Below are positions 7,351 through 17,114 of a DNA stretch of 20,030 nucleotides, in pieces (within the stretch, counting starts at the first letter, position 1; the number at the start of each line of letters is the position of its first letter). Below the pieces are notes generated by a model. It saw only the letters and a list, made by a program, of their open reading frames with translations, searched no databases and was not told the DNA's origin. The translations under genes were made by a program, and so were the position numbers. The stretch is from a virus, in IMG/VR virus record IMGVR_UViG_3300020396_000050, positions 1 through 20,030 of that record, one strand, 5' to 3'.

Positions 7351-8019
7351 ATGACCGTATCTGACAGCGTAGATTTTGAGCTAGATGTAGCTGAATACAT
7401 TGAGGAAGCCTTTGAACGCTGTGGTTTGGAGGTTAGAACAGGTTACGACCTAAAGACAGCCAAGCGATCCTTGAATTTAATGCTGGCTGAGTGGGCTAAC
7501 CGCGGTTTGAATCAATGGACGATTGCTCAAAGGACCGTGACTCTAACGCAGGGAACGGGAGAGTACGCCTTATTGCCGGACGTTATTGATATTTTGTCGG
7601 CAGTAATTCGTAGAGATAACATCGACTATTCTTTGTTAAGACTTAGCCGCGAGGAATACCAAACAGTACCCGACAAAACCTCTCAGGGCAGACCAAACCA
7701 GTTTTTCTTAGACAGGCAGGTAACGCCCAGTTTAAAACTGTGGCCCGCGCCGGAAAACGCTACTGACGTGGTTTACTACAACGCTCTTACGCGCATGGAT
7801 GACGCCGACACATATACAAACACTATGGACATGCCCTTTAGGTTTTATCCGTGTTTAGCCGCGGGTTTAGCGTATTATATTGCGGTTAAACGGGCCCCGC
7901 AGCGCGTACAACTGTTAAAAGCCATGTATGAAGAAGAGTTTGAACGCGCTATGACCGAAGATCGTGACAGGGCTTCGTTTAACGTGGTGCCCCAGTATCA
8001 ATATTTTAGGACGGGCTAA
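7351..8019 (+). CDS. P22 gp4-like head-tail adaptor (DNA stabilisation) protein
   Basis: A 222-residue protein matching the P22 gp4 / tail accessory factor type: an N-terminal helical region (about 8-30), the family's helix with AKRSLNLMLAEWANRGLNQWTI (37-58), then a strand with TLTQGTGEYALLPDVID, a middle beta part (LSREEYQTVPDKTSQGRP, LKLWPAPENA), and C-terminal helices (about 148-205). Proteins of this family bind the underside of the portal after packaging, keep the DNA in and provide the platform for the tail. GAGGA precedes the ATG at the right distance, and its stop overlaps the next start (TAATG). A T7 gp11-type adaptor is a related alternative name for the same job. Confidence 0.75.
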   Translation: MTVSDSVDFELDVAEYIEEAFERCGLEVRTGYDLKTAKRSLNLMLAEWANRGLNQWTIAQRTVTLTQGTGEYALLPDVIDILSAVIRRDNIDYSLLRLSREEYQTVPDKTSQGRPNQFFLDRQVTPSLKLWPAPENATDVVYYNALTRMDDADTYTNTMDMPFRFYPCLAAGLAYYIAVKRAPQRVQLLKAMYEEEFERAMTEDRDRASFNVVPQYQYFRTG

Positions 8020-8585
8020 TGGGAAGCTTTGCTAGCGGAAAAAACGCGTATGCAATATCAGATCGTTCTGGTTTTCGGTATCGCTACAAGGATATGCGAA
8101 AGGAGTGGAACGGTCTTTTAGTTGGCAAGGACGAGTTTGAATCTAAGCAGCCACAACTGGGTCCGTTTAGGACTGTTTCTGATCCGCAAGCTCTTCAAGA
8201 CGCCCGACCTCAAACACCGGATAGAACTAATACTTTTCAAGTGGTGACCACAAATGGGATTGTTTATCTTGGAAACGGAAACTGGTCTACTAGCGGGAAA
8301 ACGCAATTACCTACTCTTATTGAAACAACGCCTCTTTTAACCACTGGTTTGGGCGCGGTAACCGTCACCACCTCGGGCGAAACAGGTGTTTCGGTCAACG
8401 TTTCAGGAGTGTCGGGTTCAAGTAATGTGGGTACGGTAACCATTGTAGAGGAAGGTATTGCCGTTTCAGGTATAGCAGGGTCTAGTGCCGTAGGTACAGT
8501 TAGCGTAATTGCAGGGTCTGCACCAAGATTTGACAGTACGTCGGTTACGCTAGATTCAACAACAGATACTTTTGACGAGGGTTAA
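8019..8585 (+). CDS. tail/neck protein with C-terminal VSG repeats
   Basis: A 188-residue two-part protein. Residues 1-65 (GSFASGKNAYAISDRSGFRY, KEWNGLLV, QPQLGPF, DARPQ) form an N-terminal module I recall from many marine phage neck or tail proteins. Residues 108-166 contain the same 22-residue repeat found in the gene at 10848: two clear copies, VSGVSGSSNVGTVTI and VSGIAGSSAVGTVSV, at about 128-142 and 149-163, plus a degenerate one before them. The end is Thr/Ser/Asp-rich. The gene is coupled to the gp4-like gene by a one-base overlap, suggesting the products meet at the connector. The repeat end probably faces outward; this is inferred. Confidence 0.68.
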   Translation: MGSFASGKNAYAISDRSGFRYRYKDMRKEWNGLLVGKDEFESKQPQLGPFRTVSDPQALQDARPQTPDRTNTFQVVTTNGIVYLGNGNWSTSGKTQLPTLIETTPLLTTGLGAVTVTTSGETGVSVNVSGVSGSSNVGTVTIVEEGIAVSGIAGSSAVGTVSVIAGSAPRFDSTSVTLDSTTDTFDEG

Positions 8586-8588
8586 GCC

Positions 8589-9239
8589 ATGACTAAACAA
8601 ACAGTAGGTATAGGAAGTAGCGCAAACGATGGCAATGGAGATACTCTTCGTTCTGGTGCCACCAAAATAAATGCAAACTTCACTGAGATATATGCTGCGG
8701 TTGGTAATGGCTCTACACTCACCGATATAATAGACAGTAACGGTCTTATTAACGTAAGTTCTGGAGCAAATAAGATTGTTTTTTATTACGCTAATTTAAG
8801 CGACTTACCTAGTGCGGGAACATATCATGGCGCAGTGGCGCACGTTCACGCGACAGGAGGGTTGTACTTCGCTCACGCTGCCGCGTGGGTTAGATTAAAT
8901 GATGAGACAACTGGACCTGTGACTAAATACACGGCGGGTGTAAACGGATCGACTGCTTATACATTTACTGGCCCCGGAGCCACATCTGGAAACAACCCAA
9001 ACTTTACTTTCTACAAAGGCCACACGTACCTTTTAAATAACGCGGCTAATGTAAGTGCCCATCCTTTAAAGATACGAGTATCGGCAGGCGGGTCTAATTT
9101 TACAACAGGGGTTACTGAGAACTATAATTCCACTACAGGGTTAACACAGTTCATTGTTCCGCATGAGCCCTCTGACTCTTCCTTAGTATATCAATGCACC
9201 AACCACAGTGGTATGGTCGGAAACATAACAATAGTGTGA
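8589..9239 (+). CDS. virion protein with C-terminal cupredoxin-like domain
   Basis: A 216-residue protein of three parts. Residues 6-38 (GIGSSANDGNGDTLRSGATK, INANFTEIYAAV) are a short helical motif seen at the start of many phage tail-fibre-like proteins and thought to oligomerise. Residues 62-103 (FYYANLSDLPSAGTYHGAVA, then FAHAAAWVRL) are a beta module I recall from marine phage structural proteins. Residues about 112-216 read as a cupredoxin: YTFTGPG, then FYKGHTYLLNN, His158 in SAHPLKI, and a C-terminal YQCTNHSGMVGNITI giving Cys203, His206 and Met209. The C-x2-H-x2-M loop equals that of amicyanin. Copper binding is inferred from the complete ligand set; an electron-transfer partner is not visible. 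A structural, metal-stabilised tip is the more likely role. Confidence 0.7.
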   Translation: MTKQTVGIGSSANDGNGDTLRSGATKINANFTEIYAAVGNGSTLTDIIDSNGLINVSSGANKIVFYYANLSDLPSAGTYHGAVAHVHATGGLYFAHAAAWVRLNDETTGPVTKYTAGVNGSTAYTFTGPGATSGNNPNFTFYKGHTYLLNNAANVSAHPLKIRVSAGGSNFTTGVTENYNSTTGLTQFIVPHEPSDSSLVYQCTNHSGMVGNITIV

Positions 9240-9255
9240 CACCATAGGTGAACAA

Positions 9256-10110
9256 ATGAGCTATACATACACAACGCTAAAAACCGCGATAAAAGATTAT
9301 ACCGAGAATGACGAGCCTACGTTTGTCCGAAACCTACCCGTGTTTATAAAAAACTCAGAAGAACGCATCTTAAAAAACGTGCAGCTTAGTCTTTTTAGAA
9401 AAAATGCAACGGGAGTTATGTCAGACACAAGCAAGTATTTAGCCGTTCCATCTGATTTTCTAGCGCCGTTTTCCTTGTCATACACTTCAAGTAACGAAGA
9501 AATATTTGTTGATTTTAAAGACCCTGATTTTGTTCAATCATTTAACCCAAACCCTGCAACAAAAGGGTTGCCTAGATTTTATGCACAATTTGATGTAGAA
9601 AATTTTATTTTAGGGCCTAGTCCTAGCGGCGACTTTCCAGCGGAATTACATTATTTTTACCGTCCAGCTAGTATAACATCTAGCATTTTTGTTATAACTC
9701 TCTCCAACGTCAACGGAACGTTCACAACTTCGGATAATGTTACAGGTTCAACCAGCTTGCAGTCTTCAAAAGTCACTTCTATTACAAACGCTAGTACCTT
9801 GAGTGTCGTGATCCCCGCAGGAGATTTTGTGGTGGGAGAAACGTTAACAGGAAGCTCTAGTGGGGCTACTGGTACATTGACAACAATAGGTTCAGACGCC
9901 ACTGAGACTTGGCTTAGTGAAAATGCTGAAGTCGCGTTGTTGTACGGTAGTTTGATGGAAGCGTATATATTTATGAAGGGTGAACCCGACTTGCAGCAAA
10001 TATATGAAAAACGTTTTGGGGAAGCTATAATGGGCTTGAAATCTTTGGGCGAGTCAAAAGAAGTTACAGATGAATATCGTACTGGGATGATTATAAGAGG
10101 GAAACAGTGA
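9256..10110 (+). CDS. phage adaptor protein with inserted beta module
   Basis: A 284-residue protein of the podoviral adaptor type: N-terminal helices (TLKTAIKDYTEN, then PVFIKNSEERILKNVQLSLFRK), a beta domain with YLAVPSDFLAPFSL and GLPRFYAQFDVENFILGPSP, and C-terminal helices starting TWLSENAEVALLYGSLMEAY and MKGEPDLQQIYEKRF. In family members I recall, the YFYRPASIT strand runs on within a few residues to the WLSENAP helix; here residues 142-214 interrupt them with a Thr/Ser/Gly-rich module. That module contains two related halves (GTFTTSDNVTGSTS and GDFVVGETLTGSSS). It probably forms an exposed beta insert. The likely role is joining portal or gp4-like ring to the nozzle. AGGTG lies 5 bases before the ATG. 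Confidence 0.72.
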   Translation: MSYTYTTLKTAIKDYTENDEPTFVRNLPVFIKNSEERILKNVQLSLFRKNATGVMSDTSKYLAVPSDFLAPFSLSYTSSNEEIFVDFKDPDFVQSFNPNPATKGLPRFYAQFDVENFILGPSPSGDFPAELHYFYRPASITSSIFVITLSNVNGTFTTSDNVTGSTSLQSSKVTSITNASTLSVVIPAGDFVVGETLTGSSSGATGTLTTIGSDATETWLSENAEVALLYGSLMEAYIFMKGEPDLQQIYEKRFGEAIMGLKSLGESKEVTDEYRTGMIIRGKQ

Positions 10111-10847: not shown

Positions 10848-12008
10848 ATGCCACTACCTTTTTCTGGCTGGGGCCGTGGCGGTTGGAGTTCTGGCTCTTG
10901 GAATAGTCTACAAGTAGGAGTATCTGTTACAGGCGTAGCAGGTACTGGGGCTGTTGGTAGTATAAGCACTACCAGCGGGGTTACTCAACCTGTTACGGGT
11001 ATAGCTGGCACAGGATCAGTAGGTTCTGTAACAACTATTGGCGCTGCCAAAATAACGGCTGTAGGTCTGACGGGCACGGGATCAGTAGGTTCTGCAACGG
11101 TTATTGGAGTCGCAAACCTAACTGCTACAGGTATAACAGGCACAGGGTCAGTAGGGTCAGTGACCACTACGGGCGCAGCTAACATAGCAGTTACAGGGGT
11201 TAGCGGCACATCTGCGCTCAACACTGTTGTAACTGAGTCTGATGGCAATCTTGCGGTACTTGGTCTTAATTCCATTGGATCAGTCGGTGCAACCTCTGTA
11301 TCGTCAAACTCAGCAATCCCTGTAACGGGTGTTTCTGGGACAGGTTCAGTAGGCGCTGCCGTAACAAGAATAGGTATTAACGCCAATATCACAAGTGGTG
11401 TTGTAGGTACAGGCTCGACAGGTAGCGTTACAATAGACCTAACGGCTAACATACCCGCAACAGGGATCACAGGTACAGGCGCAGTAGGCAGTATAACTCA
11501 AACAAGTTCTGTAAACCAATCAGCAACAGGGGTTGTTGGCACTGGGGCAATAGGTACGACAAGTAACACCAGCGGCGTAAGTCAAACTGTAAATGGTGTA
11601 TCGGGTACAGGTGTTTCTGGTTCTGCGGCGGTAAGCGGTAAAGCTAACTCAAATGCAACTGGGGTTTCAGGAACAGGTGCAGTTGGCAGCATAACACAGA
11701 CAAGCTCTGCCAATATATCTGTTACAGGTGTGTATGGTACGGGCGGCGTTGGCTCTGTCACTGTTCAAGGTAAAGCTAATCATACTGTTACGGGGGTAGC
11801 GGGAACGGGGTCTTCTGGCGCGGCTACTGTTTCTTTTGGATACTATGCCACAGGCGTATCTGGAACAGGCGCAGTAGGTACTGTTAGTGTGAACCAAGAG
11901 TTTTCTGTAACGGGCGTATCGGCTGTAGGAGAGGTGGGTAATAACGCGTTTGTTTGGAACGAGATTATCCCTGATAACACCACAAATTGGATACCCGTAG
12001 TCGCGTAA
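10848..12008 (+). CDS. tandem-repeat virion protein (about 16 VTGVSGTGxVGSVT repeats)
   Basis: A 386-residue protein. Residues 7-18 are a Trp motif GWGRGGWSSGSW; residues about 25-368 are some 16 tandem repeats of about 22 residues, consensus VTGVSGTGAVGSVTxxGxAN; residues 369-386 form a short tail with two Trp (VWNEIIPDNTTNW). The repeats lack Cys, aromatic and most charged residues, so they would make a long, flexible or beta-solenoid-like stalk. Repeat units conserved in protein differ at many synonymous positions, for example units 9 and 12, which encode the same 12 residues with six base changes. A tail-spike-like, adhesive or surface-display role is likely but unproven. GAGGGG precedes the ATG. 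Related repeats end the genes at 8019 and 16821. Confidence 0.75.
   Translation: MPLPFSGWGRGGWSSGSWNSLQVGVSVTGVAGTGAVGSISTTSGVTQPVTGIAGTGSVGSVTTIGAAKITAVGLTGTGSVGSATVIGVANLTATGITGTGSVGSVTTTGAANIAVTGVSGTSALNTVVTESDGNLAVLGLNSIGSVGATSVSSNSAIPVTGVSGTGSVGAAVTRIGINANITSGVVGTGSTGSVTIDLTANIPATGITGTGAVGSITQTSSVNQSATGVVGTGAIGTTSNTSGVSQTVNGVSGTGVSGSAAVSGKANSNATGVSGTGAVGSITQTSSANISVTGVYGTGGVGSVTVQGKANHTVTGVAGTGSSGAATVSFGYYATGVSGTGAVGTVSVNQEFSVTGVSAVGEVGNNAFVWNEIIPDNTTNWIPVVA
10920..11951 (+). repeat. about 16 tandem 22-codon repeats
   Basis: By hand I count 16 units with a GT-G-VGS-T core; two units are degenerate (residue spans near GTSALNTVVTESDG and NSIGSVGATS), and one unit is about two residues longer. 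Copies are alike in protein but variable in DNA, so the array is old or under selection to keep its DNA non-identical, which would limit loss by recombination. Confidence 0.85.
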
Positions 12009-14706: not shown

Positions 14707-16821
14707 ATGCCGCTAACAAAGCTACAGTTTAAGCCCGGAATAAACCGAGAAACCACTTCGTATAGTAACGAAGGCGGTTGGTTTGATAGCGACAAGGTTC
14801 GTTTTCGTATGGGGTTCCCTGAAAAAATAGGCGGTTGGGTACGTCAGTCTGTATATAACTTCTTGGGTACTTGCCGTGCGTTGCATCCTTGGGTGGCTTT
14901 GTCTGGAGAAAAGTTTATTGGTGTAGGTACGTCACTTAAATACTATATTAATGAAGGAGGTGCCTATCAGGACATAACGCCTATACGCGTGGCTTCTTCC
15001 GCGGTCACTTTTGGTGCAGGGGCCAATACGTTAGATGGCAATATTAACGCTTCAATACAATCTATTGTTTTAAATAGCGCCGCAGGTTTTCCAACAGGCG
15101 GCGGTCTTATTCTAATAGGTACAGAACAAATACGGTATGTAGGTATTACCAGCGCAACGTTAACAAGCTGCACTCGCGGTGTTAACGGCACTATCGCTGC
15201 ATCACACTCAAACAATGATCCGGTTACTTGCGCCACACTGACTGTTACAGACGCGGATGGGCACGGCGCAGTGAAAGATGATTTTGTTACTTTCTCGGGC
15301 GCGGCATCTCTTGGCGGGGTTATTATTCCCGCAGTTCTTAACCAAGAGTATCCGATCACAAAAATTGTTTCTTCCACTGTTTTTCAAATTGAAGCCAGAA
15401 CCGCGTCTGCCATTTCAGATATAACTACTTCTTCGGGTTTAAACCCCACTCTGGTGTTTGCTAACACTAGCGACAGCAACAACGGCGGCGGTTCTGCCGT
15501 AGGTGCGTACCAAATTAACACTGGATTAGACACTACCATTCAGGGAACGGGGTGGGGAGCGGGTACGTGGAGCCGTGGTACGTGGGGGTCAGCTTCAGAC
15601 TTAACAGTCTCTGGCGCTACTTTAAGAATTTGGAGCCACGACAACTTTGGTGAAGACTTATTAATAAATGTTAGAGATGGTGGTATATACTATTGGAAAA
15701 AATCCAATGGATTGAACAACCGTGCGGTTTTACTTTCTGGTTTATTAAACGCAAACAAAACTCCGACCGTAGCCAAACAAATACTTGTTTCGGACAAAGA
15801 CAGGCATATTATAGCGTTTGGTTGTGACCCTGAAACAGATATTGGCAAACAAGACCCCCTACTTATTAGGTTTGGCAGTCAAGAAAGTCTAACTGATTGG
15901 GCCTCTACCGTTACTAACACTGCGGGTGATTTAAGAATTGGCGCGGGTTCCGAAATCATAACCGCAGTAGAGACTAGGCAGCAAGTCTTGGTGTTTACAG
16001 ACGTTTCCTTACACGCCATGCAGTTTCTTGGACCGCCGTTTACATTTGGTATTAACACCGTTTCTGAAAACATTACTACCGCAAGCCCCTTATGCGCAGT
16101 AGCTGTTAATGACAGCGTTTTTTGGATGGGAAGAAAAGAATTTTATGTCTACGCAGGCGCGGTAAAACGACTTCCGTGTACTGTCCGAGATTATGTTTTT
16201 TCTGACTTTAATGAAAGCCAGATAGAAAAAGTTTCGGCGGCAACTAACACTGCCTTTTCAGAGATTTGGTGGTTTTACCCTTCTAAGAACAGCGAAGAAA
16301 ATGACCGTTATGTTGTGTTCAACTATGAACAACAAGTATGGTATTATGGCAATCTAAGCCGCACTTGCTGGGTAGATCGTGGTGTTGATGAGCTACCTAT
16401 AGCCGCAAGCTCTGACCACTATCTTTATGAGCATGAAAGCGGCTTTGATGATGGCAGCACTGCACCAGCAACAGCTTTATTAGCTCACATAGAAAGTAGC
16501 CAGATAGATTTAGGTGATGGAGACCAGTTCGCGTTTTTGTCCAGAATTATTCCTGACATAACTTTCCGAGATTCTACAACAACTAATCCCGCAGTTACCT
16601 TTACACTAGGGGTTCGAAACTTTCCGGGTGGCAATTACTTGCATACCGATGCTAACTCCGTAAGCAAAACTTCTTCAATTCCTGTAGAACAGTTTACAAA
16701 AGAAATCAGAACCCGCCTGCGCGGAAGATCGTTTAATTTAAAAATAGAAAACACTGGAACCGAAACCGCTTGGCGGTTAGGCACACCCCGAGTTGAAGTT
16801 AGACCGGACGGTAGGCGTTAA
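14707..16821 (+). CDS. tail nozzle / tail-tube-B-like protein
   Basis: A 704-residue protein, the largest connector-type gene product besides the fibre. N-terminal residues 1-60 (MPLTKLQFKPGINRETTSYS, EGGWFDSDKVRFR, PEKIGGW, RALHPW) are the characteristic beginning of the beta-propeller nozzle proteins of marine podoviruses, functionally like P22 gp10 or T7 gp12. Two inserted beta modules follow: about 105-172 (FPTGGGLILIGTEQIRYVG, then CTRGVNGT) and about 176-232 (AVKDDFVTFSGAASLGGV, LNQEYPITKI). Residues 282-293 hold a GWGAGTWSRGTW motif, then a propeller-like body with repeated aromatic blades (FGEDLLINVRDGGIYYW, FWMGRKEFYVYAGAVKRLP, WWFYPSKNSEENDRYVVFNY). It would form the exit channel below the adaptors. 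Ribosome-binding site AAAGGTG. Confidence 0.7.
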   Translation: MPLTKLQFKPGINRETTSYSNEGGWFDSDKVRFRMGFPEKIGGWVRQSVYNFLGTCRALHPWVALSGEKFIGVGTSLKYYINEGGAYQDITPIRVASSAVTFGAGANTLDGNINASIQSIVLNSAAGFPTGGGLILIGTEQIRYVGITSATLTSCTRGVNGTIAASHSNNDPVTCATLTVTDADGHGAVKDDFVTFSGAASLGGVIIPAVLNQEYPITKIVSSTVFQIEARTASAISDITTSSGLNPTLVFANTSDSNNGGGSAVGAYQINTGLDTTIQGTGWGAGTWSRGTWGSASDLTVSGATLRIWSHDNFGEDLLINVRDGGIYYWKKSNGLNNRAVLLSGLLNANKTPTVAKQILVSDKDRHIIAFGCDPETDIGKQDPLLIRFGSQESLTDWASTVTNTAGDLRIGAGSEIITAVETRQQVLVFTDVSLHAMQFLGPPFTFGINTVSENITTASPLCAVAVNDSVFWMGRKEFYVYAGAVKRLPCTVRDYVFSDFNESQIEKVSAATNTAFSEIWWFYPSKNSEENDRYVVFNYEQQVWYYGNLSRTCWVDRGVDELPIAASSDHYLYEHESGFDDGSTAPATALLAHIESSQIDLGDGDQFAFLSRIIPDITFRDSTTTNPAVTFTLGVRNFPGGNYLHTDANSVSKTSSIPVEQFTKEIRTRLRGRSFNLKIENTGTETAWRLGTPRVEVRPDGRR

Positions 16822-17114
16822 TGTCTAGGAATCTAGTTCGCCCGTTTTTCCCGATTCCTCCGCAGGGATACGAACAGTCGTACTTTAATGAAATTATTCG
16901 GTCTTTTGCTGTATATTTAGACCAAATGCAAAACCCCGGAGAAGGTAGACACACTACTTTAGTTCTAACCGAATTGCCAAGCAATGATTCGGGTTTAGAA
17001 GAAGGTTCTATTTTTGTTGTTGACGGTGTTTTAAGAATACCATTACCTTTTAAACCGTTTCCCGCGGGTGTTTTAGGAAGTGGTTTGGTCGGCACCGTGA
17101 CGGTGACCACATGA
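16821..17114 (+). CDS. small tail protein ending in one VTG-type repeat
   Basis: A 97-residue protein overlapping the nozzle stop by one base. Residues 1-73 (NLVRPFFPIPPQGYEQSYFN, EIIRSFAVYLDQMQNPGEGR, EEGSIFVVDGVLRI) form a module I recall from marine phage tails: a Pro-rich lead, one helix and a beta hairpin. The C-terminus PAGVLGSGLVGTVTVTT contains a single copy (83-95) of the repeat that fills the protein at 10848. Coupling with the nozzle gene suggests assembly on the nozzle tip. No enzymatic motif. Confidence 0.65.
   Translation: MSRNLVRPFFPIPPQGYEQSYFNEIIRSFAVYLDQMQNPGEGRHTTLVLTELPSNDSGLEEGSIFVVDGVLRIPLPFKPFPAGVLGSGLVGTVTVTT

Follow-up and report, generated by a model that had tools for sequence, protein, structure and literature searches.

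Amicyanin (PDB 1aac and its relatives) is a described counterpart of the C-terminal domain encoded by gene T, which occupies 8589..9239 (+ strand) of the window analysed here, the 20,030-base virus record IMGVR_UViG_3300020396_000050. The two domains have in common the predicted fold, the order of the ligands and the C-x2-H-x2-M loop, whereas the first ligand lies in an H-P-L/F motif in the T domain and in P-H-N in amicyanin, and the T loop is devoid of amicyanin's Pro-Phe. Moreover, T carries no signal peptide and its domain forms part of a virion protein. The best structural match of the T domain is the N-terminal domain of three-domain copper nitrite reductases (2dv6, 6tfd, 6tfo), which differs in being the module of an enzyme and shares 19–20% identity with the T domain.

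Among phage proteins, PHROG 677 and the cyanophage gp9 proteins share with T both the C-terminal domain and a start resembling T4 gp9/gp10, although T has only about half the length of cyanophage gp9 and is an optional gene of a P22/LUZ24-like short-tailed phage. Marine lipoproteins of SAR86, SAR92, OM182 and marine group II archaea possess the full H-C-H-M set as T does, but they are cellular, bear a lipoprotein signal and fall in another branch of the tree. Metal-binding HxH sites were proposed earlier for the tail fibres of marine phages (PMC11705849). These sites, together with the Ferrojan Horse idea, resemble T in that the tail protein of a marine phage would carry a metal; the HxH systems would hold iron through histidines in trimeric fibres, whereas T presents a putative type-1 copper site plus a possible HxH site.

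Architecture of T and fold of its C-terminal domain

The open reading frame of T starts with ATG a few bases 3' of the stop codon of the upstream gene b, and homologues of its product were found in at least 80 IMG/VR loci with 85–98% identity. From the ORF, PF07880 and PHROG 677, the 216-residue product is predicted to be a gp9-like virion adaptor with a C-terminal cupredoxin domain. Residues 3–60 (8595..8768, + strand) constitute a region resembling the N-terminus of T4 gp9/gp10, associated with virion attachment and trimerisation, which meets the cut-off of PF07880 (25.9 bits against 25), and the C-terminal end of PHROG 677, annotated as 'baseplate wedge tail fiber connector', corresponds to residues 106–216 (E 4.8e-45). 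T also lies between two SU10-adaptor-like genes, which flank the b–T pair. An earlier note on this DNA had called the product a virion protein, and these three lines of evidence support that assignment at the level of sequence, while its location at the tip of the tail is unproven.

The same note had placed the domain boundary at about residues 112–216 (8922..9236, + strand), which agrees with AlphaFold2 modelling of the full protein from 73 sequences, where residues 111–216 obtained pLDDT values of 83–95 and nearly all the rest, with low confidence for the region of residues 3–60, remained below 50. Modelled alone, the domain gave a mean pLDDT of 88.3 and a pTM of 0.81. All of its top structural matches were copper proteins with cupredoxin folds, led by the N-terminal domain of the Hyphomicrobium three-domain nitrite reductase (2dv6; Z 10.7, rmsd 2.3 over 94 residues), with small laccases and rusticyanin also among the best. 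By this modelling, the C-terminal domain of T is predicted to fold as a cupredoxin.

Sequence comparison of the single domain was less informative. A phmmer search of the PDB with the T domain returned only a chance antibody match, so profiles were needed. When the PDB was searched with a profile built from 52 diverse relatives, the top ranks went to copper nitrite reductases, plastocyanins and amicyanins (amicyanin 3e-5, plastocyanin 3e-5), and the His, Cys, His and Met of the profile aligned with His53, Cys92, His95 and Met98 of amicyanin, which we take to be its copper ligands, and likewise with the ligand columns of plastocyanin. Structure prediction, which the note had put forward as a check of its proposal, thus yielded a cupredoxin fold with the ligands on the amicyanin columns, as judged by profile and without side-chain distances. 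Neither the Pfam nor the NCBIfam models matched the T domain of the window. For Copper-bind (PF00127), the T domain gave no match above the gathering score and one of 13 relatives matched at 9e-4; for the amicyanin model TIGR02657, the T domain gave no match and six of 13 relatives matched weakly (best 0.0059). Membership of the amicyanin family in the narrow sense was rejected, given that TIGR02657 does not match the T domain. As a separate observation, 'Beta-sandwich' proteins of Marseillevirus- and Pithovirus-like genomes in BFVD match the T model at 1e-6 to 7e-5.

Joint conservation of the predicted copper ligands

The four predicted copper ligands are His158 (9060..9062, + strand), located in the HP-L/F motif of SAHPLKI, and Cys203, His206 and Met209 of the C-x2-H-x2-M loop CTNHSGM (9195..9215, + strand), whose residues and amicyanin spacing are exactly as the note had described. 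Apart from the start Met, T contains a single Met, and it has a single Cys. Shuffling of the T residues reproduced the pattern H...C-x2-H-x2-M in 26 of 200,000 trials, and the ligand set is conserved across relatives; chance was therefore ruled out as the origin of the motif.

In an alignment of 73 sequences (249 columns, mean column identity 31%), the columns of H158, C203, H206 and M209 are the only invariant ones, while the remainder of the domain drifts to about 25–45% identity. This contrast bears on the view that the domain is a non-metal, Ig-like or merely cupredoxin-folded structural unit whose conserved residues are relics of folding, in line with the Ig-like label that some deposited records give to such proteins (P-HM1, with the note 'contains PF07686', and MED4-213); since only the four ligands stay fixed and losses strike Cys and His together, that view is very unlikely, and the Ig domain label was rejected.

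Among 47 domains with mutual identities below 70%, His-Cys-His is present in all 47 and Met in 45 (about 96%), the two non-standard cases being one HCHQ with Gln and one with the loop shifted by one residue. The ligand columns were then masked in the search profile so as to avoid circularity. The masked profile collected 342 full-length domains, of which 339 hold an intact set with Met, Gln or Leu as the axial residue. In each of the three others, Cys and the second His are lost together, and in two of them Met as well; all three are middle copies of tandem arrays (ORF 812 of L183, ORF 523 of L195 and ORF 805 of L216) that contain intact cupredoxin copies beside the incomplete one. An apparent loss of Met in 13 masked-profile matches proved to be an artefact of matches that ended too early, before 'HPGM'. 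Some search patterns held ligand residues, and the possible bias is lessened, not abolished, by the masked profile and by the tandem copies, which are independent of the patterns. Because some contigs are recorded twice (L013/L255, L049/L233 and L075/L276), the counts refer to loci and not to independent events.

Hence the four ligands are kept whole or lost whole and do not vary independently, which is the joint conservation that the note had proposed to look for in homologues. Its argument that the retention of all four ligands points to metal binding gains support from the fold and from this conservation, and the T domain can be inferred with good support to be a type-1 copper site; copper itself, the band near 600 nm, redox activity and the trigonal geometry of the side chains remain inferences.

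A candidate second metal site

Upstream of the cupredoxin domain, T contains a second set of histidines, H80, H85, H87 and H96 (8826..8876, + strand; YHGAVAHVHATGGLYFAH), arranged as YHG-x3-AHVH-x8-H (YHGxxxAHVHxTGxxYFAH) and including an HxH motif. Among relatives the set is mostly either present as a whole or missing as a whole: 95 matches read HHHH, others lack it entirely (EFDN, DYSS, VYAN, TYNS or DYAN), and a partial set, DKTH, occurs in two cases. Cyanophage gp9 proteins without the four histidines still keep the copper ligands. Similar HxH sites, for iron, have been discussed in marine tail fibres (PMC11705849), and the set may form a second metal site of the iron or zinc type, a possibility read from the residue pattern.

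Linkage of T to gene b

Gene b (8019..8585, + strand), the virion gene immediately upstream, ends in 18 residues (8529..8582, + strand; FDSTSVTLDSTTDTFDEG) of the type FD-T-[ST]..LDS....FDEG. Comparison of loci covering 40 gene b clusters showed that this tail is present in 86 of 86 loci with T and in none of the 27 without it, and the linkage holds even inside clusters of near-identical gene b. The tail occurs as 45 DNA variants that encode only 20 protein variants, giving a pN/pS of 0.10; the corresponding values are 0.09 in the copper domain and 0.13 in the N-terminal half of T. These ratios are rough, with synonymous sites near saturation, and within that limit they place the tail under constraint at the protein level. 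A possible ribosome-binding GAGG for T lies in the end of the tail; this overlap may account for its last residues, not for the remainder. Read most simply, the tail is probably the docking peptide of T, and the two move together as a cassette.

In other phages, a cupredoxin domain with all four ligands is part of the gene b product, at its end or within it (L282, L290, L308–L311, L313 and L330). L308–L311, L313 and L330 come from marine MAGs of several phyla; their gene b makes them look like phage contigs, and they are probably binning contamination or prophages. In the domain tree, in which many deep forks are unresolved and the row L255_fib denotes a T protein, the b-fused cupredoxins belong to a supported branch of 57 sequences that includes the cellular lipoproteins (100/99), while the T domain groups with gp9 of three cyanophages or marine phages (100/94). 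The b-fused and T domains thus lie on different branches, indicating that a cupredoxin was added to gene b at least twice, and the fusions, taken with the tail linkage, speak for a joint action of b and T. It is inferred with moderate support that T sits on b near the tail, the contact resting on linkage and fusion in the absence of a complex.

Phage type and the optional position of T

The window encodes a P22-gp10/LUZ24-like stabilisation (nozzle) protein at 14707..16821 (+ strand; phrog_3287), which ties the phage to HTVC023P, HTVC027P, CRP-901/902 and DSL-LC04. By gene content the phage is assigned to the P22/LUZ24-like short-tailed type; no near DNA match to the window was found among the phage records. 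The neighbourhood of T, with its SU10-like adaptors and the stabilisation protein, is that of a short-tailed phage, and no baseplate position of the contractile-tail kind is shown for T.

To sample relatives independently of the copper ligands, the stabilisation protein alone was used. Of 40 such relatives with enough upstream sequence, seven carry T, two carry another cupredoxin and the rest carry none. In relatives without T, gene b is followed directly by gene c, the SU10-adaptor-like gene that in the window lies at 9256..10110 (+ strand; PF24175), which makes T a clean optional insertion; being missing from most close relatives, it is therefore not essential. Some further features of the virion genes were observed. 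Several virion ORFs of the window, at 8019–8585, 10848–12008 and 16821–17114, share repeats of the type 'GTGxVGxVTVTT' or VGxVTVTT ends, and gene b of phages without T also ends in VGxVTVTT. Certain gene b copies (e.g., L281 833–1150) contain zinc-ribbon-like CxxC pairs (CDRCG...CPECF), which do not occur in b of the window.

Spread of the domain in phages and cells

The note had regarded a virion protein with a copper site as unusual, an impression that the survey of phage records does not bear out. In tblastn with the domain alone, 321 of 50,697 phage records matched, every one of them a cyanophage or marine by name; the full T query, which also catches the gp9/gp10-like start, matched 1,664 records, with many Escherichia phages among them. 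Pelagiphages, Methylophilales phages and cyanophages have a second branch of the domain in their tail fibres or virion proteins. Cultured phages with the domain include the cyanophages S-TIM5 and P-HM1 and the pelagiphage HTVC028P. The domain occupies N-terminal, internal, C-terminal and tandem positions in many different virion proteins. By these matches it is a common but unannotated constituent of marine phage virion proteins, and a search of open-access full texts, subscription papers not being covered, found no description of a blue-copper or cupredoxin domain in phage virions. As the ligand set is whole or absent in hundreds of related domains, many sea phages probably display copper on their virions, the binding of copper being inferred.

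In cells, intact H-C-H-M domains were found in predicted lipoproteins of SAR86, SAR92, OM182/Pseudomonadales and marine group II archaea, and their occurrence in both phage virions and cell lipoproteins suggests a module for surface display on both sides of infection. The lipoprotein loci include L328, L332 and L335 (SAR86, SAR92) and L323–L326 (marine group II archaea); in the archaeal proteins the domain stands behind collagen-like repeats.

Proposed function and competing explanations

In our judgement T is probably an accessory gp9-like adaptor that displays a type-1 copper domain, is docked on b and serves most likely in host attachment. In the proposed mechanism, T would serve a short-tailed marine phage as an accessory adaptor of the virion, with an N-terminal part like that of T4 gp9/gp10, and its cupredoxin domain would hold a mononuclear type-1 copper through H158, C203 and H206 with M209 as axial ligand. 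T would be displayed on the particle by docking onto the gene b product, most likely via the 18-residue C-terminal tail, and would provide a reversible, metal-stabilised contact with the host surface in the manner of an adhesin. The fold, the all-or-none conservation of the ligands, the optional cassette, the linkage to the b tail and the b fusions from another branch are computed results from which copper in the virion, the b–T contact and the role were inferred. Free copper is scarce in the cytoplasm, in which virions assemble, so the site may be loaded with copper only after lysis, or may hold another metal.

Inferred functions were ranked with adhesion-like contact first, followed by metal-locked stability, by piggy-backing on copper receptors or scavenging, and by electron transfer. 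Adhesion was placed first because the gene is optional, the domain occurs in tail fibres as well as adaptors, and tandem copies exist. No evidence directly favours attachment over stability; the ranking leans on optionality and on the occurrence in tail fibres and adaptors.

A purely structural metal, copper or zinc that locks a short beta-sandwich in a virion protein exposed to proteases and sunlight without any redox or binding role, is somewhat unlikely but remains a serious alternative. The varied placement and tandem copies in many virion proteins are what a general-purpose module would show, and HxH metal sites have already been proposed in marine phage tail fibres (PMC11705849). However, a plain zinc site needs no axial Met, which is nevertheless kept in nearly all diverse members, and the sole axial replacement among them is the Gln found in one. 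Axial Gln is known from stellacyanin-like type-1 sites. The optional nature of the gene in close relatives also speaks against a structural metal.

Copper capture, in which a copper-uptake receptor of the host recognises the loaded virion in analogy to the Ferrojan Horse for iron, or toxic copper is scavenged, appears unlikely. Related cupredoxins do occur on lipoproteins predicted at the surface of SAR86, SAR92, OM182 and marine group II archaea, yet no copper receptor has been linked to any of these phages and the copies on a virion are too few to detoxify a cell. Electron transfer with redox proteins of the host surface or periplasm, for instance to trigger the action of the tail or to mimic a host cupredoxin, seems less likely still: although the full ligand set with its exposed His is that of electron-transfer cupredoxins, no partner is known, and none is obvious for a domain carried by phages of cyanobacteria, SAR11, Methylophilales and others. 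Besides, the loop around the exposed His consists of small, varying residues (S/G/A/N), in contrast to the hydrophobic patch through which amicyanin makes contact. Mimicry of the plastocyanin of cyanobacterial hosts was rejected, given that SAR11 and Methylophilales phages also carry the domain.

Returning to the accessory copper-displaying adaptor, what is new here is the optional T cassette, its linked b tail and the fusion of b to a cupredoxin of the other branch. A broader generalisation, which we hold only tentatively, is that type-1 copper domains are a widespread and overlooked virion module of ocean phages, carried as exchangeable cassettes on tail and adaptor proteins, serving copper-dependent attachment or function, and gained repeatedly from different branches of a family that is also found on marine cell surfaces. 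The b-tail/T pair offers a small system for direct tests of docking and copper dependence. Should copper be bound, the particles of a large share of ocean phages would bear a redox metal, a domain at present listed under baseplate connector, tail fibre or hypothetical protein would acquire a function, and infection would be tied to the trace-metal chemistry of seawater, a connection so far proposed only for iron.
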